A stretch of 21,450 nt of DNA from a virus, in the IMG/VR virus record IMGVR_UViG_3300037189_015380, positions 1 to 21,450 of that record. One strand, 5' to 3'. The notes under the pieces are model-generated. The model did not search any database. It saw only the letters and a program-made list of their open reading frames with translations, and was not told where the DNA came from. Below are positions 214 to 20,818 of this stretch, piece by piece. A program made the position numbers and the translations under genes. Positions within the stretch are counted from its first letter, which is position 1. Every line of letters begins with the position of its first letter.

Positions 214-1497
214 GTGGAAAAAGAATATAACAAGCCAGTGCTCTCCTGGACCCCCCAAGAGAAGGCGGATGCAGTGAGCATGGAGTGGGAAGAATTTTAC
301 AGCAAATATCCAAGCCGAACCCCTAACGCCTACCGCATTAAGCGCAACACGCTGCTGAACGGTAAGGCTTCTTTTATTGACCGACGAGTAAACAACGGGG
401 GAACCCGAAGCGTATTCCCAGGGACGCTTGCCGCAAAGGCTGCGTCTGAGGGAAGGATTAACCGCGATGCCGTTCTTAAGGCGGCAGAGGAAGAGCTTTC
501 TTCTGAGGCAGTGCGCAGCGAGATTGAGCAGTTGAAGCAAGCACATCGCGCCGCCCTTCGTAAACTTTCTCAAAAGGAAGACGACCGAGAAGAGCTTGTC
601 CGTGCCGTGTACCAGGCAGCCAGCGATGCCGCTGCGGCAATCACCTTGCCTGCGGTGAAGGCCCCAGAAAAGGATAAGCGCAAGGGCGCGGTTGAAACCG
701 CAATCCTGCTTCTCTCGGACTGGCAGCTTGGAAAGATTACCCCTACTTATAATAGCGACGTCTGCGCAGAGCGCATTGAGTTGCTTGCAGAGAAGGTGGA
801 GTCCCTAGTAGCCATTCAACGAGCAGACCACCCAGTTACAGACCTGCGCGTCTATCTGCTTGGCGACCTTGTTGAGGGAGAAGATATTTTCCCAGGCCAG
901 GCGCACCTGATTGACGCATCTCTGTATAACCAAACGTTCCGTGGCGCGGAGATTCTTGCTGGGCTTGTGCGCCGACTGGCCGCAAGCTTTGAGAACATTC
1001 GTGTCGTTGGGGCCATTGGCAATCACGGCCGACTTGGTCGCAAGGGAACATTCCACCCAGAGTCCAACGCTGACGCAATGATGTACAAGGTTGCATCAAT
1101 GCTGGTGAAAGACGTTAAGCATGTTGAGTGGGTTGAGACCATCTCAAAGGGCGAGCGGGCGTGGTTTGGTACCGATGAGGTATACGGCAAGCGCTGGTTC
1201 CTCTTCCACGGCGACCAAGTTGGCGGTGGCTTTGCTGGCTTTCCGTGGTACGGATTTGGCAAGAAGATTCAGGGTTGGAACATGACGGTGGCGCCATTTG
1301 ATTACAGCGCTGCTGGGCACTTCCACACTCCTGTTCGGATGTACTTGAACGGCATTGTGCACTGGAACGGCGGCTCTACCGAAAGCAGCAACACCTACGC
1401 GCAGGAGCAGCTTGCCTCTGCTGGTGAGCCATGCCAGTGGCTGTTGTTCCAACACCCAGACGGAGTTTCTGCGGAGTACTTGATCCGGCTTGGTTAG
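214..1497 (+). CDS. Calcineurin-like metallophosphoesterase with N-terminal DNA-binding-like segment
   Basis: The product is 427 residues. GTG at 214 is preceded by GGAGG at 205-209. Residues 1-50 are basic and aromatic (WTPQEKADAVSMEWEEFYSK, then YPSRTPNAYRIKR) and look like a small helix-turn-helix. Residues about 85-140 are predicted helical and charged. Residues 160-425 carry metallophosphoesterase motifs: SDWQLG (D169), LLGDLVEG (D218), GNHGR (N270, H271), FHGDQ (H332) and GHFH (H369, H371). The first motif is D-x-Q where the family usually has D-x-H. Related enzymes hydrolyse phosphodiesters or phosphomonoesters with two metal ions; the substrate here is unknown. The gene stands alone on the plus strand inside the leftward head-tail operon and its stop overlaps the stop of the gp10-like gene, so it looks like a moron-type insertion. 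Confidence 0.85.
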   Translation: MEKEYNKPVLSWTPQEKADAVSMEWEEFYSKYPSRTPNAYRIKRNTLLNGKASFIDRRVNNGGTRSVFPGTLAAKAASEGRINRDAVLKAAEEELSSEAVRSEIEQLKQAHRAALRKLSQKEDDREELVRAVYQAASDAAAAITLPAVKAPEKDKRKGAVETAILLLSDWQLGKITPTYNSDVCAERIELLAEKVESLVAIQRADHPVTDLRVYLLGDLVEGEDIFPGQAHLIDASLYNQTFRGAEILAGLVRRLAASFENIRVVGAIGNHGRLGRKGTFHPESNADAMMYKVASMLVKDVKHVEWVETISKGERAWFGTDEVYGKRWFLFHGDQVGGGFAGFPWYGFGKKIQGWNMTVAPFDYSAAGHFHTPVRMYLNGIVHWNGGSTESSNTYAQEQLASAGEPCQWLLFQHPDGVSAEYLIRLG

Positions 1498-2105
1498 GCG
1501 GCGCTGCCGTACTTCCTCATAATGTATCTGCGTTGGCGGAATATTTTTAGCTGACGGCTACGGGGCAGTTGCGCAAGCTTTCCTGGTCCGTAGCCGCGCC
1601 CAGTTCTTGTTGGGACAAAGCTTCTGTCAAGCGCCCGCTCAATAAGTTGCGCCAAAAATTCTTCTGCAGCGCTTCTGACCGCGCCGGCTACGGCCTGGTT
1701 GATCATAAGTCGGTACTTCTGAACGTTAAACTTTACAAACTGCCCGTAGAAGTGCTCTCCGCCATCTGCGGATTCTTCAAATGGGTCGCTTCCGTACTCA
1801 ACAGTAATGTCGTCACCGTATGGCGTTAAATCAAAAACTGGGTTTGAGTATCTGGCGGCTTTGCGCTTGCTGGAGGTAAACGCCCCCCACTGTCCAGAGA
1901 GTCCAGCCGCAAATGCGCCGGAATCAACGGGGGCGGCCTCTGCGGCCTTGGGGGCAACCTCTGAGTACACCGCCTGGAACGCGGCAACCTGGACCGCCCG
2001 GGCAAATTGCGCCTCTGCCTCTTTTGGTATTTCCCCTAAGTTTTTTGCAAGCGCGTTAAGTCCGCCAATTACACCTTTGACGCGCACCCTGACAGCCTTG
2101 CTCAT
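1494..2105 (-). CDS. HK97 gp10-like head-tail/minor tail component
   Basis: A 203-residue protein. Residues 1-35 (MSKAVRVRVKGVIGGLNALA...) and the later AAPVDSGAFAAGLSG motif match the pattern of HK97-gp10-like proteins, where a long N-terminal helix is followed by 'P.dTG.L' and beta strands. This family acts at the neck/tail interface during assembly. The C-terminus is very basic (RSRQLKIFRQRRYIMRKYG) and longer than usual, which may reflect contact with DNA or the tail. ATG at 2105 directly follows the TAA of the upstream gene (TAAATG), with GAGGT just before, so translation is likely coupled. The stop codon (TAA, 1494-1496) overlaps the TAG of the opposite-strand phosphoesterase gene (1495-1497). 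Confidence 0.7.
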   Translation of the reverse strand: MSKAVRVRVKGVIGGLNALAKNLGEIPKEAEAQFARAVQVAAFQAVYSEVAPKAAEAAPVDSGAFAAGLSGQWGAFTSSKRKAARYSNPVFDLTPYGDDITVEYGSDPFEESADGGEHFYGQFVKFNVQKYRLMINQAVAGAVRSAAEEFLAQLIERALDRSFVPTRTGRGYGPGKLAQLPRSRQLKIFRQRRYIMRKYGSAA

Positions 2106-2432
2106 TTATACCTCGGAGATTCTTGCCTTAACCGTTAGATGATGACGAAGGGATTCCTGCAAGATACCAATAACAATAAAGGTCTTCCCGTGGACGACTA
2201 GGCGGTCGTCTGGGGCCGGTCGACTTGTTCCAGTAAGGAACGGTAGGTAGAATTCGTAGAACTCTTCAGCCCGGCGGCCAGTGTCATTCTGCTGTTCAAT
2301 GTTGTAACGCTTCTGGTAGTGACCCTTCTTGGTCCAGACTACAGACGTGGTTCGGATGGGCGTGCCCATTGCATCTTGCGACGTTGTTCCTGGTCTCGTA
2401 AGCTGTATTGACGCATTGAATCCTGGAATCAT
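2106..2432 (-). CDS. Head closure / head-tail joining protein
   Basis: A 108-residue, beta-rich protein (LTRPGTTSQDAMGTPIRTTS, ...VVWTKKGHYQKRY, ...PDDRLVVHGKTFIVIGI). Its size, strand pattern and position between a connector and a gp10-like gene fit the small head-tail joining/closure proteins (SPP1 gp16-like or lambda FII-like) that seal the portal vertex after packaging. No enzymatic motif is present and none is expected. The start ATG overlaps the upstream stop (ATGA), indicating translational coupling. The call rests mainly on gene order and fold-like sequence pattern, not on an unambiguous signature. Confidence 0.6.
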   Translation of the reverse strand: MIPGFNASIQLTRPGTTSQDAMGTPIRTTSVVWTKKGHYQKRYNIEQQNDTGRRAEEFYEFYLPFLTGTSRPAPDDRLVVHGKTFIVIGILQESLRHHLTVKARISEV

Positions 2433-3364
2433 CGCAATGCTGTTCCTTGATACTGGTCAAGAAGCGCCATAGCGGAACGTGGGATTCTTAAGCTGCTTCC
2501 CAACCTGCCATTCTCACGCTCTCCTTGTGGGTTTGCGGCATACATTTCAAACTCGCCAATGCGGAAACGGGATAGCCCACCCATGCCTTGCTTAACAAGG
2601 TTGTCCTTAGCAAGCAGGTCAACGGTAATCATCGCAACAGCATCTTTGACCGGCTGAGGTGCTGCCTGATAGCCGTGAGTGTAGGTAATCTCAACAACGG
2701 GCTCAATCATGCCAAGGGCAACAATAGCCGGGAATAGAGAGTAGGTTACGGCGGCCAGCGAAGTCACTTCAACGTAGCCACGGTCTTCGTTAATGTAAAA
2801 GTCGTTAACGGTGAAGCTGGCGCTTTGCTGGGCACTGACGTGCACGCTGACTTCTGAAACTGAAACGATTGGACGCTGACGCACATATACGCGACGGTTC
2901 TTCTGGTTCCAAGGATGCTTTTCCGTGTTCTGCACATACTCAAATGAGTAGCCCACGTAGGAGTCAGCAAGCCCGCCGGCAGCCTTAATAAGGCGCTCAA
3001 TCTTCTGGTCGCTGAGTGGGGTGCCGTCTGGGTCGGTTAGGTCGCCAATCTCGTAAGAGCGGAACTCGTCAACAGTGATATAGCCAAGCGGCTGGCCCTG
3101 CACTGGGGTTACCCAGGAGCCCGCTGCGGAAGTGCTGGTGTTGTATAGGCGCCAGGTGCTCCACTGATTGCTTGCGCACCCCGTATCTGTGTATTCGTAG
3201 GTAGACACTACAGCGTTAAGGGTGATAACCGACCCAAGGTTGGTAAAGGTGCCGGTTTGAGCTGCGGCGTGGGCGGACGTGGCTGCCCTGCCCACCTGAA
3301 TGGCGTTATACGTTGCCACGGCGGTTTGAATGTCTGAAACGTTGATCGTCAGTTTTACAGCCAT
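2429..3364 (-). CDS. Head-tail connector/adaptor-like protein
   Basis: A 311-residue product from ATG at 3364, with GGAGA 8 bases upstream. An upstream in-frame TTG at 3379 lies inside that ribosome site and is rejected as the start. The C-terminal two thirds (from about YITVDEFRSYEIGDLTDP) has the hallmark of gp6-like head-tail connectors: a helix after 'LSDQKIERLIKAAGGLADSY', then R-x-Y-V-R-Q-R-P-I-V-S-V beta strands, and a late helix pair (PVKDAVAMITVDLLAKDNLV). The first about 100 residues, rich in Thr/Ala/Ser, are an extra domain that resembles a small beta-sandwich decoration. Connectors of this kind form a ring under the portal. It sits between the 83-residue protein and the closure gene in the leftward operon. 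Confidence 0.65.
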   Translation of the reverse strand: MAVKLTINVSDIQTAVATYNAIQVGRAATSAHAAAQTGTFTNLGSVITLNAVVSTYEYTDTGCASNQWSTWRLYNTSTSAAGSWVTPVQGQPLGYITVDEFRSYEIGDLTDPDGTPLSDQKIERLIKAAGGLADSYVGYSFEYVQNTEKHPWNQKNRRVYVRQRPIVSVSEVSVHVSAQQSASFTVNDFYINEDRGYVEVTSLAAVTYSLFPAIVALGMIEPVVEITYTHGYQAAPQPVKDAVAMITVDLLAKDNLVKQGMGGLSRFRIGEFEMYAANPQGERENGRLGSSLRIPRSAMALLDQYQGTALR

Positions 3365-3411
3365 ATTCGTATTCTCCAAAATTTATTGGCTAGGCGCCAT
3401 AGGGGGGCTAT

Positions 3412-3729: not shown

Positions 3730-4956
3730 TTACACGGTGACGCGAATCTTGCCGTTGAACTGAGGTGCCTTGTTCGAAAGGCCAAACATCACATACATGA
3801 TATAGAGGCGCGAAAGGGCACCGTTCACGCCGACTGGAATCTCCAGCGTCGTGATCGAGTCCGAGCCAAGGTATGGCATTGACCAGGCATCCTCGTCAAC
3901 AACATACATGTCTCGGTAGTTGGTCGAGCTGACCGTGTACGAGCCAATGCTGTCGCCCGGAACTGGGAGGAGTGGAAGCTCGCCAGCGGCCGTAACAACG
4001 GTTCCGAGGGTGAGTCCCATGACCTGCTGTCCCTGCGATGGGGCATTGTAACGAACAAGGTTCGTGACCTCATTCACAAGACCGGCGTAGTCCGTAGGCG
4101 AGCAAAGGATCGCCGACGGGTTACCACCCGCGTTGAGAATTGAAGCAACGTTCGAGTTGATCGTTGCGAGGTATGCGCTTGCGCCCTTGTTAACGATCTG
4201 GGCATTGCCAGCCGCCGTACCAAGGTGCTTGCGAAGACCAGTGAAGCCGTTTGCGTCGTACGCGCCAAGCTCAGTCGCAGCGCCAGCCGAGGCCGTCGTG
4301 TCTGCGTTGCCCTGGAAGAGGGCGTACTGAAGCTTGTGAGCAATGGCGGTTACGCCCGAGGCAAGCTCGGTCGAAAGCCCGTTGAAGGGGCCGCCACCCT
4401 GGTTAAGGGCGAACTGCGACTTCAGCGTGATACCGCGTCGTGTCGCAAGGACGGCCACGTTGGTCGTCTGGCGAACGTAGGTCGCGGCATCATCGGTCAC
4501 GGTGCCGGTCTCCGTCTGGAAGACGGCGTCACCGTAAGCGGTCTGCTGGTTGAACGCGTGCACGAGGCCGTTTGCCGGCTCCTTGCGGATGCGCTCAAAG
4601 AATGGGAACTTCTTTACGAACAGCGAGTAAAGGATTGGCTCCAGGTCCTGACGGATAAGAGCCGTGCCGCCGCTGCTGTCGAGAAGCTTGGCAATGTTGG
4701 GGTTAGCAACTGCCAGCTGGTTGAGGACGTCGGACGAAGCCTGCTTGCCGGTCTCGCGAGCAGCCTGAATATCAAGCATCTCGTGAAGGTCCGACGTGCT
4801 CATCTTTGAGAACTTCTTGCGAAGGTCCTTCTGAATTGCGTAGGCCTCGGCGGCGTCGAAAGTCTTCCCGGCGCCCGAATCTCGGGTCACCACGGACTCG
4901 TTAAGGGCTTCAAGGCCCTTAGACGCTCCGCCTAGGATCTCTCGGTTGTCGCTCAT
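3730..4956 (-). CDS. HK97-fold major capsid protein
   Basis: A 408-residue protein and the main shell subunit. Residues 1 to about 110 are helical and charged (delta-domain-like, e.g. KDLRKKFSKMSTSDLHEMLD). The rest follows the HK97 capsid pattern: an N-arm and E-loop region around TAYGDAVFQTETGTVTDDAA, a spine helix around ALNQGGGPFNGLSTELASGV, and a late P-domain (YRDMYVVDEDAWSMPYLGSD). The gene follows the protease/scaffold gene by 6 bases. Its ribosome site AGGAG lies in the last codons of that gene, 9 bases before ATG 4956. A hairpin directly after the stop is consistent with high expression. There is no obvious accessory domain. The order protease-scaffold-capsid supports the call strongly. 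Confidence 0.9.
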   Translation of the reverse strand: MSDNREILGGASKGLEALNESVVTRDSGAGKTFDAAEAYAIQKDLRKKFSKMSTSDLHEMLDIQAARETGKQASSDVLNQLAVANPNIAKLLDSSGGTALIRQDLEPILYSLFVKKFPFFERIRKEPANGLVHAFNQQTAYGDAVFQTETGTVTDDAATYVRQTTNVAVLATRRGITLKSQFALNQGGGPFNGLSTELASGVTAIAHKLQYALFQGNADTTASAGAATELGAYDANGFTGLRKHLGTAAGNAQIVNKGASAYLATINSNVASILNAGGNPSAILCSPTDYAGLVNEVTNLVRYNAPSQGQQVMGLTLGTVVTAAGELPLLPVPGDSIGSYTVSSTNYRDMYVVDEDAWSMPYLGSDSITTLEIPVGVNGALSRLYIMYVMFGLSNKAPQFNGKIRVTV

Positions 4957-4962
4957 GATTTA

Positions 4963-5610
4963 TTACTCCTGAGTCTCCAGCACACGCTGGATGTATGGGC
5001 TTAGCCAAGGTGCGGATGTTGCCATCTCGCCCGAGGCGCGCTTAACGGCTGGAACATGACCGACGGGGACGTCAATCAGTCTGCCAACCAGGTCCAATGT
5101 CTTTTCCAACTCCAGCTCGACCTTGGCCTTTGCGGCGACTACTTCGGCAACGCTCTTCTTCAGGGCGATGACCTCTGCCTGTGCTGCAAGTGCTGCATCT
5201 AGCGCAGACTTGGCAATTTCGGCGACCTCGGCAATAGTTGCTGTATCGTCCGACTTTTCATCCGCAGCAGCTTCTGGCTCTGCGGCATGTTCAATTTCCG
5301 CTGCTGGATCTTCCGCCGGAGCCTCTGGCTCAACAGCTGGGGCCTCAGCAACGGGCTCCTCTTCAACCTTCTCTTCTGCTGGCGCCTCTGGGGCAACCGC
5401 AGCTGCCGCAGCAGCATCGGCGGCCGCCTGGGCCTGCCGGGCAGCAATCTCTAGGTCGGTATCCTTGACGACTTCTGCGCCAAGCTCTTCAAGCACTGCA
5501 ATGTGCTCGGCCTTTGGCTCCTCGTCGGCAGCAACTTCCTCAACGGCAGTTGGCTCCTCGGCAACGGGCGCTACGGCCTCGTCAACAATAATCTCGTTCT
5601 CGTTTTCCAC
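4963..5610 (-). CDS. Candidate scaffold protein from an internal in-frame start
   Basis: Inside the protease fusion gene, GTG at 5610-5608 (codon 458) is preceded by a perfect GGAGG (5623-5619) with an 8-base spacer. That is as good a ribosome site as those of the independent genes in this window. The resulting 215-residue product would begin VENENEIIVDEAVAPVAEEP and contain only the acidic disordered region, the coiled coil and the C-terminal tail, which is the composition of a scaffolding protein. Nested scaffold genes in the 3' part of protease genes are known (lambda C/Nu3). This would give free scaffold in excess over protease-linked scaffold. The GGAGG could be chance within LEV codons, so the start is an inference. 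Confidence 0.55.
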   Translation of the reverse strand: MENENEIIVDEAVAPVAEEPTAVEEVAADEEPKAEHIAVLEELGAEVVKDTDLEIAARQAQAAADAAAAAAVAPEAPAEEKVEEEPVAEAPAVEPEAPAEDPAAEIEHAAEPEAAADEKSDDTATIAEVAEIAKSALDAALAAQAEVIALKKSVAEVVAAKAKVELELEKTLDLVGRLIDVPVGHVPAVKRASGEMATSAPWLSPYIQRVLETQE

Positions 5611-6981
5611 GCTCTTTACCTCCAATAGGTTGCCCTGTGGGCCTTTGTTTTGCTTGATTGCAGAGGACAGTATTTCTGCCTCGCCTGGTTCTTCAACCTC
5701 GCCTGGCTCCTCGGCAAGAGAAGCCCGGAGCTGCCATGACCACTTCTGGTGCATGTCCTGACGCTCGGCCAGGAAGTTAGCAATCCCTTGCTGGTTGGCA
5801 TCGGTGGCCGCCTTAAAGGCAACCATGATGTTTTCCAGTAGAGATTCGTTAGCAGCATAAAGGTTAGAGGCAAGAGCTTCGGCTTCGTAGCCCTCTGCCT
5901 GAGGAGCGTTGTTAGTCATTTGGGCCAAATCCTTCAGCTCAAAAGGAGCTGCCGAGTTCAGCTTGCGAAGGCTTTCCGCAATAGGATCAAGGGATTCATG
6001 AACATCCTCATAGATCTTACCGAAAAGCTTGTGGTATTGAGCAAACTCTTCACCAACAACGTTCCAATGGGCGCCATGCGCCTTTAGGTAAAAACTTGTT
6101 GCCTCCGCAAGAAGGTTATACAGGGCACCAATGAGCGGCGCCTTGTCGGCACTAGCCTGGCCTTCAACTTCAACAGCCTTGCTAACAAGTTCATCAAAAG
6201 ACTTAGCGGCGCGAAGGGTAGACATCTTGTGGCCAACAATTCGGTCGGTTGGCTTGTCGTCCTTGTACACGCGAATAAGGACTGCCGGGTCTCCCTCTTC
6301 GGCAGTGATAGTAAATGAAGAATCAGGAACCTTCACGCTACCCTCTCGGACAATCTTGGTAATTTTGCCGCGAGCGGTCCCGCCACTTGCGCCCCAGCTG
6401 ACCATATCGCCAACCCTAAGGCCGCCTGCCGCCTTCTGCTCTTCAACAGAAGCGCTGCGAAGACTCTTAATAGCATTCTGCAAATACGAGCGCTGGTTGG
6501 CAGGAATGCCAACGACTGAAGCCTCCATCAATTTGACGCTGTCAATGACGTAGGTCTCCTCGCCGGTTGAATTGTCAACTTTCTTGCTAACTCTGTCAAC
6601 TCTTGCGCCAATAGACAGACCAAGCTTGACACCGCGCTTGATTGCGCGATAAGCACGGATTGCCTCTGGGTTTTCGTCTTCGGAAACCACGGAAATATCA
6701 ACGTCAAGGTCAAACACTTCTTGACCGGTTTCGTCAATTCTTTTTACTATTCTAGCGTCTTTGACGGAGCCGAAAAGATCGTCTGGGACCTGATATTCGT
6801 GATTCAGCCAAATGGTCATGTTCTGCTTTGCCGTTGCCTCCATGCTCTTCAAAGCAGATAAGGTCATTTCATCTCCATGAAGGTCCCTAATGGTTGAGGA
6901 AGTGGTGCCAGTGACGTATCGGTCGCCGTTATCGGCCTCATAGGCCTTTAACGCGTTCGTATAGATCTTGAAATCAGACAT
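4963..6981 (-). CDS. Prohead protease fused to TUDOR-like, Dps-like and scaffold domains
   Basis: A 672-residue multidomain protein; ATG 6981 has AGGGGGA just upstream. Residues 1-175 are an HK97-type prohead serine protease, with WLNHEY (H61), KLGLSIGA (S123) and VKLMEASVVGIPANQRS (E153 region). Residues 187-257 (LRVGDMVSWGASGGTARGKI...) match the HVA1/DUF2945 TUDOR-like domain often attached to phage head proteins. Residues about 278-423 look like a Dps/ferritin-like four-helix domain: H305-W306, H317, D332 and E336 align with the Dps ferroxidase ligands, and the last helix has MHQKWSWQLRASL. The usual Asp ligand four residues after H317 is Gly321. Residues 425-590 are acidic, Ala/Pro/Glu-rich and probably disordered. 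Residues about 595-640 are a coiled coil, followed by a short C-terminal tail; both are scaffold-like. An internal start at 5610 may make the scaffold alone. The protease cleaves scaffold and capsid during maturation; the role of the Dps part is unknown. Confidence 0.88.
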   Translation of the reverse strand: MSDFKIYTNALKAYEADNGDRYVTGTTSSTIRDLHGDEMTLSALKSMEATAKQNMTIWLNHEYQVPDDLFGSVKDARIVKRIDETGQEVFDLDVDISVVSEDENPEAIRAYRAIKRGVKLGLSIGARVDRVSKKVDNSTGEETYVIDSVKLMEASVVGIPANQRSYLQNAIKSLRSASVEEQKAAGGLRVGDMVSWGASGGTARGKITKIVREGSVKVPDSSFTITAEEGDPAVLIRVYKDDKPTDRIVGHKMSTLRAAKSFDELVSKAVEVEGQASADKAPLIGALYNLLAEATSFYLKAHGAHWNVVGEEFAQYHKLFGKIYEDVHESLDPIAESLRKLNSAAPFELKDLAQMTNNAPQAEGYEAEALASNLYAANESLLENIMVAFKAATDANQQGIANFLAERQDMHQKWSWQLRASLAEEPGEVEEPGEAEILSSAIKQNKGPQGNLLEVKSVENENEIIVDEAVAPVAEEPTAVEEVAADEEPKAEHIAVLEELGAEVVKDTDLEIAARQAQAAADAAAAAAVAPEAPAEEKVEEEPVAEAPAVEPEAPAEDPAAEIEHAAEPEAAADEKSDDTATIAEVAEIAKSALDAALAAQAEVIALKKSVAEVVAAKAKVELELEKTLDLVGRLIDVPVGHVPAVKRASGEMATSAPWLSPYIQRVLETQE
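5608..5623 (-). promoter_or_regulatory. Internal ribosome-binding site for scaffold
   Basis: GGAGG at 5623-5619, an 8-base spacer, and GTG at 5610-5608, in frame with the enclosing gene. It lies exactly at the junction between the Dps-like part and the acidic scaffold-like part. Confidence 0.5.
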
Positions 6982-7786: not shown

Positions 7787-9916
7787 ATGGCAGATGACAG
7801 GTCGCTAATTGACCGAATACTGAATCGCGAAGCCCCCAGCTTGAAGAGCGGCGGATCGGCGATTGTTCCAGACTACGACATTGGGCCGTACGCCCGTGGT
7901 GTTGGCAGCGTGCAGATGACCCGCCGAAGCGTTCTTCAGCTTCGCAAGTGGTCACGCAGCAATCCATGGATTCGCGCCGCGATCAACCTGCGCCGCACAC
8001 AAGTGAGCCGCGCAAAGTGGGACATTGTTACGCTTGATGGAGAAGAGCGCGGCACCGTTCGCAAAGTCAACCAGGTCAAGGAACTGTTGCGTTATCCAAA
8101 TCGCCGCATGGATTCTTGGCGCTCGCTTATTGAGCCAGTTGTTGAGGACATCCTTGTTCTTGATCAAGGCTGCATTGAGGTTATCCCAACCCGTGGTGGG
8201 GCAATTGGCCTTGAAGGCGCTAAGCCTGTTGCGGAGCTTATTGCCAAAAACGGCGGAAGCATTGCCTTCAACAACGAGTGGGACGGCGAAGACGATAACG
8301 ACCCACGCTACTACGAGGTTGACGAAACGGGTCGGCAGATTCGCAAGTTCAAGAACCACGAGCTCCTTGTTATTATTGCCAACCCAGTAACGTACTCGCC
8401 TATTGGCTTGTCGCCGCTTGAAGTGCTGGCAGACACTATTGAGGCAGACCTGACGGCCGCAGCCTACAACGCTAAAGCTGTTTCGCAGGCGGCGCCCCCA
8501 GGGGTTCTGCATCTTGGCGAGGGCATCCGCGCAGACCAAGTTGACTCGTTTAAAGCGTACTGGGACACAGAGATTTCTGGACGCAGTCAGATTGCCATTA
8601 CCGGCGGCGGCAAGGGCGTTCAGTGGATTCCGCTTGCTTCTTCAAACCGCGACATGCAGTTCATGGAGTGGCAGGTCTATCTTGCCCGCAAGATCTGTGC
8701 CGTGTTTGGCGTACAGCCACAAGACATTGGTATCACCATGGACGTCAACCGTGCCAGCGCTGAGGTTGGCGCCGCGTTTACGCAAGACAACGGCATTGCC
8801 CCGCTCCTTGACCTTATTGCTGAGTACATGACCCGTGAAATTGTGTGGCGCTATGACAAGAATCTACGGTTTGTTTACACGGAAGTTGGCCGAGAGAGCC
8901 AGGGCGCAATGTCCGACTACTACAAGTCAGCCCTCTCTGGCATGCCGTGGCTAAAGCTGAACGAGGCGCTACAGGAGCGCGGGCATGAGGGCATTGGCGA
9001 GATGGGCGATGACATTTTCATTCCTTCGCCAAAAGGCTACATCCCGCTTTCGCGCTACGAGGAATACCTTGACGTGGCGCTTGGAAAGCCAGAAGACCCA
9101 AACAATCCAACCGGACCAGAGGACGGCGGGGCAGCCCCAGCACAGGGCGGCCCAGACAATCCTGGCGAGGAGCCAAATCAGGGGGAGACCATGAATCCGC
9201 AACAGCAGACTAGCAAGGCACTTCTTGGGCTAATGATCGGCATTGAGGCCTTATACGACGAGGATTGGGAAGTCCGACCAAAGGTTGCTGAGGCAATTGC
9301 TGAGGCTAAGGATTCCGGTCGGCGCATTGCTATTGTTGTTGGCTTCAAGAACGATAAGGAAGAGATTGCTGAGTGGCTTAAGGACGATGAGATTCCATAT
9401 GACGACTTGATTATTAACACTTGGCCAGAAGGCACTGAAAATCGCTTCCGCCTCTACGCGGCCAGCAAGCTGCTGCGAGACGGGCAGTTGGAGATTATTG
9501 AAAAGACCGACGATCTTGCTGACGAGTACAAAAAGATTGGCGCATCGTTTGTTGCGGTAAACATTTCTAACGACCCAATTGAAGCCCAGAAAGAAGGCGC
9601 AAGCACAGTCGCCCCAGCTGGAGCCAAGGCCGAAGCCCGCAAGGGTTTGAAGTGGCGAGAAGAGTTTGGTCGCGGCGGCATTGGCCCAGGTCAGGCTACA
9701 GCGCGAATGATTATCGGCAACCGACTTACCCTAGCTCGCATTCGAAAGATGAATGCGTACTTTGCCCGTCACGAAGTTGACAAGAAGGGCAAGGGCTGGG
9801 CACCAGGATCAGAAGGATTCCCAAGCAACGGGCGTATCGCCTGGGCGCTGTGGGGCGGAGATCCTGGAAAGTCGTGGTCGGCAAAGGTATCTCGCCAAAG
9901 CAAGGACAAGAAGTAA
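7787..9916 (+). CDS. Portal protein with C-terminal pseudo-HAD and RHEVDKKG modules
   Basis: A 709-residue protein. Residues 1 to about 430 are an HK97-family portal: the N-terminal QLRKWSRSNPWIRAAINLRR, the core NPVTYSPIGLSPLEVLADTI, and a clip/stem region with VFGVQPQDIGITMDVNRASA. The portal forms the dodecameric vertex ring for DNA packaging. Residues 430-468 are a Pro/Gly/Asp linker. Residues 475-592 follow a HAD phosphatase layout (ALYDEDWEVRPKVAEAIAEA, GRRIAIVVGFKND, WLKDDEIPYDDLII, DDLADEYKKIG), but the DxDGT nucleophile region reads GLMIGIEALYDED, so the catalytic Asp pair is missing. Residues about 612-695 (KGLKWREEFGRGG, ...ARHEVDKKGKGW, ...GRIAWALWGGD) are a module often found at the ends of phage head proteins. 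The gene is divergent from protease and capsid, unlike the usual portal-protease-capsid order. Confidence 0.9.
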   Translation: MADDRSLIDRILNREAPSLKSGGSAIVPDYDIGPYARGVGSVQMTRRSVLQLRKWSRSNPWIRAAINLRRTQVSRAKWDIVTLDGEERGTVRKVNQVKELLRYPNRRMDSWRSLIEPVVEDILVLDQGCIEVIPTRGGAIGLEGAKPVAELIAKNGGSIAFNNEWDGEDDNDPRYYEVDETGRQIRKFKNHELLVIIANPVTYSPIGLSPLEVLADTIEADLTAAAYNAKAVSQAAPPGVLHLGEGIRADQVDSFKAYWDTEISGRSQIAITGGGKGVQWIPLASSNRDMQFMEWQVYLARKICAVFGVQPQDIGITMDVNRASAEVGAAFTQDNGIAPLLDLIAEYMTREIVWRYDKNLRFVYTEVGRESQGAMSDYYKSALSGMPWLKLNEALQERGHEGIGEMGDDIFIPSPKGYIPLSRYEEYLDVALGKPEDPNNPTGPEDGGAAPAQGGPDNPGEEPNQGETMNPQQQTSKALLGLMIGIEALYDEDWEVRPKVAEAIAEAKDSGRRIAIVVGFKNDKEEIAEWLKDDEIPYDDLIINTWPEGTENRFRLYAASKLLRDGQLEIIEKTDDLADEYKKIGASFVAVNISNDPIEAQKEGASTVAPAGAKAEARKGLKWREEFGRGGIGPGQATARMIIGNRLTLARIRKMNAYFARHEVDKKGKGWAPGSEGFPSNGRIAWALWGGDPGKSWSAKVSRQSKDKK

Positions 9917-15528: not shown

Positions 15529-15544
15529 CAGATTGATTGCGTCT

Positions 15545-15635
15545 CGCATGGATTCGTACCATGCGGTATATTCTTCTACCGATTAACGGAGGAAGAGCAA
15601 TCGTAGGGTCGGGGGTTGAACGCCTCCGGCCCTAC
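15545..15635 (+). other. Two hairpins in the ssb-thioredoxin gap
   Basis: CGCATGG/CCATGCG (15545-15551 and 15559-15565) forms a 7-bp stem. A second element pairs 15603-15615 with 15623-15635 as 13 continuous pairs including two G-U, with a 7-base loop TTGAACG. The second hairpin ends 8 bases before the GGAGG region of the first thioredoxin gene. No U-run follows either, so they may be RNA-processing or translation-control elements more than terminators. Confidence 0.5.
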
Positions 15636-15653
15636 ACTGTCTGTGGAGGACAC

Positions 15654-15986
15654 ATGTCGATTTTTTCAACGACCGACGCACAATTTCAGCACGACATTAT
15701 TGAATCGACAAGCCCAATCCTCGTAGATTTCTGGGCTCCATGGTGCAAGCCATGTAAGGCGGTCGCCACAGAGCTTGAAAAACTGAAGGAGCAGTACGGC
15801 AAGAAGCTCCGTATTGCCAAGATCAACGTCGACGAGAACCCCCTTACCGCACGGAGCCTTTACATCCGCTCTATCCCCACCATCATCTTCTACCCAGGCA
15901 AGGGGGAAGCTCCGCTCTCCGTCGTCGGTGCCACTACAGCAGTTGAGCTAGAGCGACGCTTTCGGCTTCCGGAACTGGTAAAATAA
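15654..15986 (+). CDS. Thioredoxin-like protein 1 (WCKPC)
   Basis: A 110-residue thioredoxin from ATG 15654 with GGAGG seven bases upstream. The longer frame from 15537 is rejected because it crosses the hairpins and lacks a ribosome site. The active site is FWAPWCKPCK (C31, C34) and the cis-proline loop is SIPT (P75). The fold order VDFWAPWC ... IAKINVDENP ... IPTIIFYPGKG is complete, so it should be redox-active in the cytoplasm. Phage thioredoxins reduce ribonucleotide reductase or host proteins, and host thioredoxin is a processivity factor for T7 polymerase. A second thioredoxin gene follows after 4 bases. Confidence 0.9.
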   Translation: MSIFSTTDAQFQHDIIESTSPILVDFWAPWCKPCKAVATELEKLKEQYGKKLRIAKINVDENPLTARSLYIRSIPTIIFYPGKGEAPLSVVGATTAVELERRFRLPELVK

Positions 15987-15990
15987 CCCC

Positions 15991-16326
15991 ATGATCTTTA
16001 GCATTACTGACGAGACATTTGGCCCAGTGGTCCTTGGCTCTACCAAGCCGGTCTTGGTGGATGTCTGGGCGCCCTGGTGTGAGCCCTGCCTGATGCTGGA
16101 TGCCGAGCTGACGCGGCTCGACAACAAATACGGCGAGAAGATCTTTATTGCAAAAATAAATTTTGACGAAAATTCACGCATGGCAGCAGGAATGGCAGCA
16201 GCAGGGATTACCTCTGTTCCAGCCTTACTGTATTATCCGATTGGGGTGCAATCGCCCCGGGTACTTCTTGGGTGCTACCCAATGGAGAAAATTGCCAAGG
16301 CGTTTGGGTTTGACAAGCTGAAATGA
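15991..16326 (+). CDS. Thioredoxin-like protein 2 (WCEPC)
   Basis: A 111-residue thioredoxin with active site VWAPWCEPCL (C30, C33) and cis-proline SVPA (P77). It aligns along its whole length with the preceding protein (VLVDVWAPWC / ILVDFWAPWC, IAKINFDEN / IAKINVDEN), so the pair is a tandem duplication that has diverged. The residues between the cysteines are E-P here and K-P in copy 1, which would shift redox potential and partner charge preference. It starts 4 bases after copy 1 with no clear ribosome site, so translation is likely coupled. Confidence 0.9.
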   Translation: MIFSITDETFGPVVLGSTKPVLVDVWAPWCEPCLMLDAELTRLDNKYGEKIFIAKINFDENSRMAAGMAAAGITSVPALLYYPIGVQSPRVLLGCYPMEKIAKAFGFDKLK

Positions 16327-18055: not shown

Positions 18056-18334
18056 TTAGGCGATGGTGTAGGTCGTACCCCCTACTACTAGGGTGCTAAT
18101 AGCGTCTAGCGGGATAGCCCGATAGGCGCGCTTCTGAACATCAAACACGCTGACCAGCCCCTTCTCAATGAAGTTGTAGGCAGCGTCGCCCCCCGCAAGG
18201 TGCTTCTTTACGCCTAGCCGCGCTACCATCTTGCGATGCTCGCCCGTCGTGCGCTTTACAAACTCAACGCTGAACATCTTGCCCTTCGTGGCGAGAATCA
18301 ACGCCGTTGCCTCTTGTGGTGTGATTAGTGCCAT
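18056..18334 (-). CDS. SH3-like beta-barrel small phage protein, copy 1
   Basis: 92 residues from ATG 18334, with AGGAGAAAGGAG just upstream; the longer frame includes the promoter region and is rejected. Sequence landmarks are ALILATKGKMFSVEFVKRTT, RKMVARLGVKKHLAGGDAAY and YRAIPLDAISTLVVGG, which match a family of small phage proteins annotated as SH3 beta-barrel fold proteins. The molecular role is unknown. A clear paralogue lies at 20540-20818. It has its own promoter (18382-18410) and terminator (18005-18034), so it is a monocistronic unit. Confidence 0.85.
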   Translation of the reverse strand: MALITPQEATALILATKGKMFSVEFVKRTTGEHRKMVARLGVKKHLAGGDAAYNFIEKGLVSVFDVQKRAYRAIPLDAISTLVVGGTTYTIA

Positions 18335-18381
18335 TTGTGTTCTCCTTTCTCCTATTACGGCTCTCCATCGCCGCTGAAACG

Positions 18382-18410
18382 ATTGTCTCACATCGCGCCA
18401 ATGCCGTCAA
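18382..18410 (-). promoter_or_regulatory. Leftward promoter of SH3-like copy 1
   Basis: TTGACG (18410-18405), a 17-base spacer and GACAAT (18387-18382), about 48 bases before ATG 18334. The flank CTAGGGGCTTGACG is shared with the promoter at 20881-20910. Confidence 0.65.
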
Positions 18411-20539: not shown

Positions 20540-20818
20540 CTAGCGGACTTCGTACTTCTCTCCGCCCGTGGAGAGCGTGAGGATCGCGTCTAGCGGGATT
20601 GCCCGATAGTCGCGCTTGGTCGTGTCGTACACGACGACCAGACCCTTGTTGGCTGCGTTGTAGGCGGGGTCACCGCCACGCAGAGCGGACTTCACGCCGA
20701 GGCGTGCCGTCATCTTGCGAACCGAGCCGTCGGTGCGCTTCACAAAGGTCACCCCAAAGAGGCGACCCTTGGTGGCAGCAATCAGAGCCGCTGCCTCGCT
20801 ACTAGTGATGGGCTTCAT
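20540..20818 (-). CDS. SH3-like beta-barrel small phage protein, copy 2
   Basis: A 92-residue paralogue of the protein at 18056-18334. Shared segments include ATKGRLFGVTFVKRT / ATKGKMFSVEFVKRT, RKMTARLGVKSALRGGDPAY / RKMVARLGVKKHLAGGDAAY and YRAIPLDAI in both. ATG 20818 has AAAGGAGAGGG upstream. The leader can form two stem-loops (GGCAGT/ACTGCC at about 20859-20876 and GCGG/CCGC nearer the start). It has its own promoter (20881-20910) and hairpin (20490-20519). The whole unit, not only the coding part, looks duplicated. Confidence 0.85.
   Translation of the reverse strand: MKPITSSEAAALIAATKGRLFGVTFVKRTDGSVRKMTARLGVKSALRGGDPAYNAANKGLVVVYDTTKRDYRAIPLDAILTLSTGGEKYEVR

Follow-up and report, generated by a model that had tools for sequence, protein, structure and literature searches.

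A Dps/ferritin-like domain in an exchangeable slot of a phage head maturation protease-scaffold protein

The window analysed here, a stretch of 21450 bases from a virus record, contains at 4963..6981 (minus strand) a gene for a single chain of 672 amino acids in which an S78 head maturation protease, an Hva1 TUDOR-like module, a Dps/ferritin-like domain, an acidic linker and a coiled-coil scaffold follow one another (ORF list, translation, Pfam and PHROGs). Comparison with related sequences places the Dps part in an exchangeable slot of this protease family, and we consider it somewhat probable (about 60%) that affinity for the scaffold brings a working ferroxidase into procapsids, where it would handle iron or peroxide. 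A preliminary description of this DNA had given the ORF at exactly these coordinates, omitting its strand, and had recognized protease, TUDOR, Dps and scaffold within it; all four parts were found again by Pfam, PHROGs, PDB and model searches. The exchange of modules in the slot, the recurrence of Dps on other head proteins and a probable nested start of the scaffold are additional to that description. The gene holds the only ferritin match of the record. A search of phage proteins for the same domain order returned the same unbroken chain on many independent IMG/VR viral contigs with 51-100% identity, which rules out that a sequencing error had joined two genes. No report of a Dps or ferritin fused to a head protease or prohead protease was found in the open-licence literature, and the same literature yielded neither proteomic data nor a structure for a virion of this kind.

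The S78 prohead protease domain occupies residues 3-179 (6445..6975, minus strand), as seen from the alignment, a Peptidase_S78 match (PF04586) over residues 48-171 (E 5e-7, 30.4 bits with a cut-off of 21) and a match to the head maturation proteases of phrog_80 (2e-10). H61 and S123, named earlier as the protease residues, are invariant across the 14 relatives of the protease alignment, and so is E153; the 672-aa protein is a putative protease in which the catalytic His and Ser of the S78 family are conserved. It is followed by the Hva1 TUDOR-like module at residues 190-257 (6211..6414, minus strand), where PF11160 matches residues 191-254 at 8e-7, above its curated cut-off. The number of TUDOR copies in relatives is 0, 1 or 2, and they are placed either 5' or 3' of the Dps part. 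The same module was found by tblastn, with 49-50% identity, in two cultured phages, Roseobacter phage CRP-811 (PV211010, 27360-27581) and Limnohabitans phage DC31 (PQ492658, 73344-73637), one of the two carriers being annotated as a major capsid protein and the other as a hypothetical protein.

The Dps/ferritin-like module spans residues 278-423 (5713..6150, minus strand). Pfam Ferritin matches residues 286-423 (E 3.5e-11, above the curated cut-off), phrog_3636 (Dps) matches at 1e-23, and the best PDB sequence match is 8ff9, a Pseudomonas Dps, over residues 276-423 (E 9e-17). The AlphaFold model of this segment, proposed in the preliminary description and built here with 51 relatives, has a pLDDT of 91.5 and a pTM of 0.86 and shows a Dps fold of four long helices with a short helix (80-86) between B and C, which is a hallmark of Dps. 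When this model was compared with known structures by VIA-align, Dps chains ranked first (Z 19.6-21.5 over 143-157 residues), and the same region cut from the full-length model gave a Z of about 20 to Dps. With a pTM of 0.30 the model of the whole chain is poor, and for this reason interpretation is confined to the Dps part of the structure. Profile and structure searches both agree with the ferritin-like fold that had been suggested, and by its sequence and its model the segment is a true Dps.

The ferroxidase ligands H305, H317, D332 and E336, together with W306, stand at the exact Dps spacing, as the preliminary description had read them. Of 157 distinct Dps domains from phages, 154 have the motif HW-x10-H-x14-D-x3-E, and in the other three the ligands are kept with one residue inserted. 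This conservation is partly built in because the peptide patterns used to find relatives include part of the motif; D332 and E336 are absent from every search pattern. Pairwise comparison of full-length Dps copies gave dN/dS values of 0.04-0.13, those of a segment under purifying selection at the sequence level. These values, the invariant ligands and the replacement of Dps by homologous, functional-looking copies largely refute the idea of a functionless, decaying passenger, in favour of which one could quote the frequent loss of the domain and the half-Dps remnant described below.

The Dps had also been proposed to bind iron or DNA. The first half of this proposal agrees with the intact ferroxidase site. 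The second does not fit the net charge of -8 to -15, without a basic tail, in each of the 11 free or fused Dps domains that were compared. DNA binding is a property of many cellular Dps proteins, and the basic DNA-binding tail belongs to only some members and does not define the family. The acidic net charge and the lack of a basic tail favour iron chemistry over DNA binding, which on sequence grounds seems unlikely for this segment. Packaging does bring DNA into the same space as the Dps, but with these charges in 11 out of 11 domains it is very improbable that the Dps binds the packaged DNA and condenses or protects it.

The scaffold part consists of an acidic Ala/Glu/Pro-rich linker at residues 430-594 (5200..5694, minus strand; translation), with pLDDT under 50 over most of its length, and a C-terminal coiled-coil/scaffold domain at residues 595-672 (4966..5199, minus strand), which was present in 61/61 complete family members counted. 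A long helix covers residues 580-636 in the full-length model, and the acidic coiled-coil scaffold described earlier was in this way recovered. Inside the linker a Shine-Dalgarno sequence, GGAGGT (5618..5623, minus strand), lies 7 nt before a GTG at 5608-5610 (codon 458). The predicted scaffold-only product would comprise codons 458-672 in the same frame (215 aa; 4966..5610, minus strand), and its prediction draws on the same arrangement in relatives: a strong Shine-Dalgarno motif with ATG or GTG was found between the last module and the C-terminal domain in 60/69 genes, and those listed of the genes without a strong motif have GGAG ahead of an ATG at the start of the scaffold. Such a motif and start lie no more than 100 codons from the last module in 19 of 24 chosen genes, as compared with 9.2 +/- 2.0 (maximum 17 in 500) in synonymous shuffles of those genes, a test with simple Shine-Dalgarno motifs in which over one third of the shuffled genes gain one too. 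The scaffold-only product is probably made from the internal GTG, and by analogy with lambda C and Nu3 plentiful scaffold beside a rarer protease-Dps-scaffold chain is likely.

The evidence for an exchangeable slot comes from the relatives of the 672-aa protein. Taken together, a protease-only scan and the first scan yielded 61 relatives that are distinct and complete. Their architectures were S78-TUDOR-CTD (22/61, CTD being the C-terminal domain), S78-TUDOR-Dps-CTD (10/61), S78-TUDOR-TUDOR-CTD (8/61), S78-Dps-CTD (7/61), S78-Dps-TUDOR-CTD (5/61), S78-CTD (5/61), S78-TUDOR-Dps-TUDOR-CTD (2/61) and a half-Dps arrangement (2/61). Gain and loss of Dps on the protease tree require at least 13 changes, 9 of which are forced by well-supported (starred) branches. 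Protease domains are identical in L108, which carries Dps, and in L100 and L109, which carry TUDOR; L108 and L109 have 91-93% identity over about 3.7 kb on either side and are unrelated within the slot. Between L001 and L002 identity is about 99% along 4 kb, apart from positions 6801-7400 of L002; this divergent stretch holds the Dps and ends at the start of the scaffold, after which identity is again ~100%. Synonymous divergence between the two amounts to 0.40 for the Dps as compared with 0.06 for the protease. The proteases of L008 and L027 are 76% identical and their Dps domains 99%. Two relatives (L085:4986-6548 and L087:2247-3809) keep only the C-terminal half of Dps, with MHQKWSQQL, and miss the ferroxidase half, which is a remnant of recent loss. 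From these sequence comparisons we conclude that Dps occupies an exchangeable slot of the protease family.

Other modules were seen in the same place. In L099:4998-7139 a different one (YRRGSGAYSTSHRPGVSRAAWSMARVNAFL) occupies the slot ahead of a TUDOR copy, and L008:5944-8490 has a further one, which resembles a stretch of L148:2492-4678 (YKLPFADVVDGELKAIP and YKLQFADIVDGELKAIP, respectively), a likeness spotted by eye and unscored. This further module is common to a C-terminal and an N-terminal Dps fusion with different protease families.

Frequent loss, the half-Dps remnant and relatives with an identical protease domain and a near-identical scaffold but no Dps all indicate that Dps is dispensable for assembly, which favours a conditional benefit, for example in peroxide- or iron-rich hosts or waters, over structural need. 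This bears on the suggestion in the preliminary description that Dps might shape the core as a 12-mer. Proteins with a Dps fold oligomerise strongly, and the location of a confirmed Dps fold between protease and scaffold would suit a role in which protease-scaffold chains are gathered by Dps oligomers (dimers, trimers or 12-mers) that help to nucleate or size the core, iron chemistry being secondary. The suggestion is weakened by the relatives without Dps, in which it is unneeded, and assembly alone would not require ferroxidase ligands that are kept everywhere; Dps is moreover found N-terminal to proteases without this scaffold. We therefore regard a primary assembly role as rather unlikely.

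Fusions of Dps to head proteins are not restricted to the window family. Scans with Dps alignments gave at least 585 and at least 574 confirmed stretches, and among the matches listed, besides free-standing genes of 144 aa, Dps was located N-terminal to an S78 protease in L037, L143, L148, L151, L155, L170 and L171, with or without phrog_2859 and TUDOR modules, and C-terminal to an S78 protease in L154. Also among the matches listed, it stood C-terminal to other proteases, phrog_2753 (L036), phrog_9427 (L049, L262, L266) and phrog_3270 (L142), and was joined to a minor head protein in L237; a chain of 1740 aa with phrog_2859, portal/protease matches and Dps (L033:1723-6942) is possibly a head polyprotein. 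Every nameable fusion partner among these matches was a head protein. Several of the fusions are independent because domain order and protease family differ, and this is in part backed by the tree of Dps sequences, where the window family forms one clade (98/95), a separate one (98/90) unites L154 with the main Dps-before-S78 group, and the other fusions are scattered on long branches. Fusion to a head protease and scaffold, and independent fusions on head proteins, argue at the sequence level for the earlier proposal that Dps is placed inside the procapsid before packaging. Such repeated acquisition by unrelated phages indicates that an iron enzyme probably has a job inside the newly forming head.

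Further Dps domains lie at the N-terminus of large proteins (L233, L236, L238, L240, L254, L257 and L271) whose remainder matches no named head family, and these are possible further cargo fusions. Some free phage Dps genes among the matches listed adjoin genes for the major capsid protein, portal or MuF (L052, L158, L048, L180). The 425-aa gene 5' of Dps in L048 was rejected as a protease, since its match to phrog_3017, labelled 'head maturation protease', sits in a region common to RNA-ligase and methyltransferase families. Phage Dps encoded as separate genes are thought to help the host (PMC8008677, PMC6669764), and by extension the fused Dps could be an auxiliary stress protein of the infected cell, the fusion ensuring late co-expression and the protease releasing it. 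The repeated fusions are to head proteins and not to random late proteins, which makes this explanation an improbable one.

A tblastn search for cultured relatives in 50,697 phage records, for which the whole protein, another fusion and the Dps part of the latter served as queries, found no Dps-protease fusion, the matches being protease-only, TUDOR-only or free Dps. An uncultured phage protein in BFVD, automatically named 'Prohead protease' (A0A6J7WPK9), matches over the Dps fold, and fusion sequences are thus already public under automatic names. A protein with a Dps fold exists in Escherichia phage SU10 (BFVD A0A0B4N267), and no gene is annotated as Dps in positions 1-40000 of its genome, which include the head genes. 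Two fused copies come from metagenome bins that carry the labels Actinomycetota and Betaproteobacteria; a genome scan for the host returned four phage-like contigs from metagenome bins and nothing else, and none of the four assigns a host.

The neighbours of the 672-aa gene are head genes. Directly downstream lies a SU10-type major capsid protein (3730..4956, minus strand; PF17236 9e-12, phrog_752 1e-11), followed by a head-tail adaptor (2429..3379, minus strand; phrog_442 1.7e-21) and an HK97 gp10-like neck/tail completion protein (1494..2105, minus strand; PF04883 1.8e-5). The portal protein (7787..9916, plus strand; Phage_portal 7e-38, phrog_12, phrog_2859) is divergent from the protease gene, although head genes usually run together; its C-terminal phrog_2859 module (residues 606-706) is the one located N-terminal to protease-borne Dps in L037 and L148. 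Elsewhere in the window, as read from translations only, are tandem thioredoxin-like genes at 15537-15986 (WAPWCKPC) and 15991-16326 (WAPWCEPC). Small paralogous proteins are encoded at 18056-18391 and 20540-20818 on the minus strand (ATKGKMFSVEFVKRTTG and ATKGRLFGVTFVKRTDG).

The loading of procapsids with ferroxidase, which we prefer, would proceed as follows. The protease-scaffold fusion offers a slot for exchangeable modules, here TUDOR and Dps, and the internal GTG would yield a second product, the scaffold alone. As both products share the scaffold/C-terminal domain, they would co-assemble inside the procapsid, and the rarer full-length chain would take in a small dose of Dps as scaffold-targeted cargo. 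The tail-less, acidic Dps part may then act as a ferroxidase that uses peroxide or oxygen to oxidise Fe(II) and stores the iron, most likely shielding the head contents from Fenton damage or buffering metal during maturation. After proteolysis the Dps would be either kept as an internal virion protein or set free. A bolder and tentative extension is that in many aquatic phages the procapsid is a virus-made iron compartment: a scaffold- or protease-borne ferroxidase, loaded into every head, would remain in the virion and there store iron or remove peroxide, or would deliver iron at infection, and the slot would serve generally as a bay for exchangeable cargo of the head. The usual view takes head proteases and scaffolds to be temporary assembly tools, and a conserved redox enzyme repeatedly acquired and cassette-swapped in such a protein would point to an unrecognised chemical task in the forming head. 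The slot may be seen as a natural exchangeable site for scaffold cargo. Whether phage heads handle iron, as the Ferrojan horse idea and ferritin-loaded encapsulins lead one to ask, becomes testable.

Several known systems share parts of this arrangement. With the Dps family, which are dodecameric mini-ferritins, the phage domain has in common the short BC helix, the spacing of ferroxidase ligands and a Z of about 20-21, but it forms an internal part of a 672-aa head protein and is flanked by other domains on either side; Listeria-type Dps likewise have no DNA-binding tail, as is the case for the acidic, tail-less phage Dps. The protease belongs to the same sequence family as the S78 prohead proteases (phrog_80, HK97 gp4-like), with conserved H/S/E and an adjoining major capsid protein gene, and differs from the usual ones in its module slot, its own scaffold and a portal gene on the opposite strand. 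In lambda the scaffold Nu3 is nested in gene C, and C belongs to another protease family than S78. Protease and scaffold share one frame both there and in the window gene, where an internal scaffold start is probable, but the window gene has extra modules between the two and an S78 protease. Lambda C, Nu3 and portal form an initiator complex (PMC3224144). Free phage Dps and ferritins are separate genes, discussed as having host-protective or tail-iron functions, and a ferritin of one Vi01-like phage has been detected by mass spectrometry and tied to the Ferrojan horse idea (PMC10892097). Encapsulins hold ferritin-like enzymes inside HK97-fold shells (PMC8346489, PMC6668986). The likeness would lie in such a shell with a ferritin-like enzyme inside. 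Encapsulins use a dedicated shell protein without virus genes; here the shell is a phage major capsid protein encoded beside portal and neck genes, and the cargo is covalently part of the protease-scaffold instead of carrying a short targeting peptide. If it exists, the virus-made iron compartment would be the viral counterpart of ferritin-loaded encapsulins.
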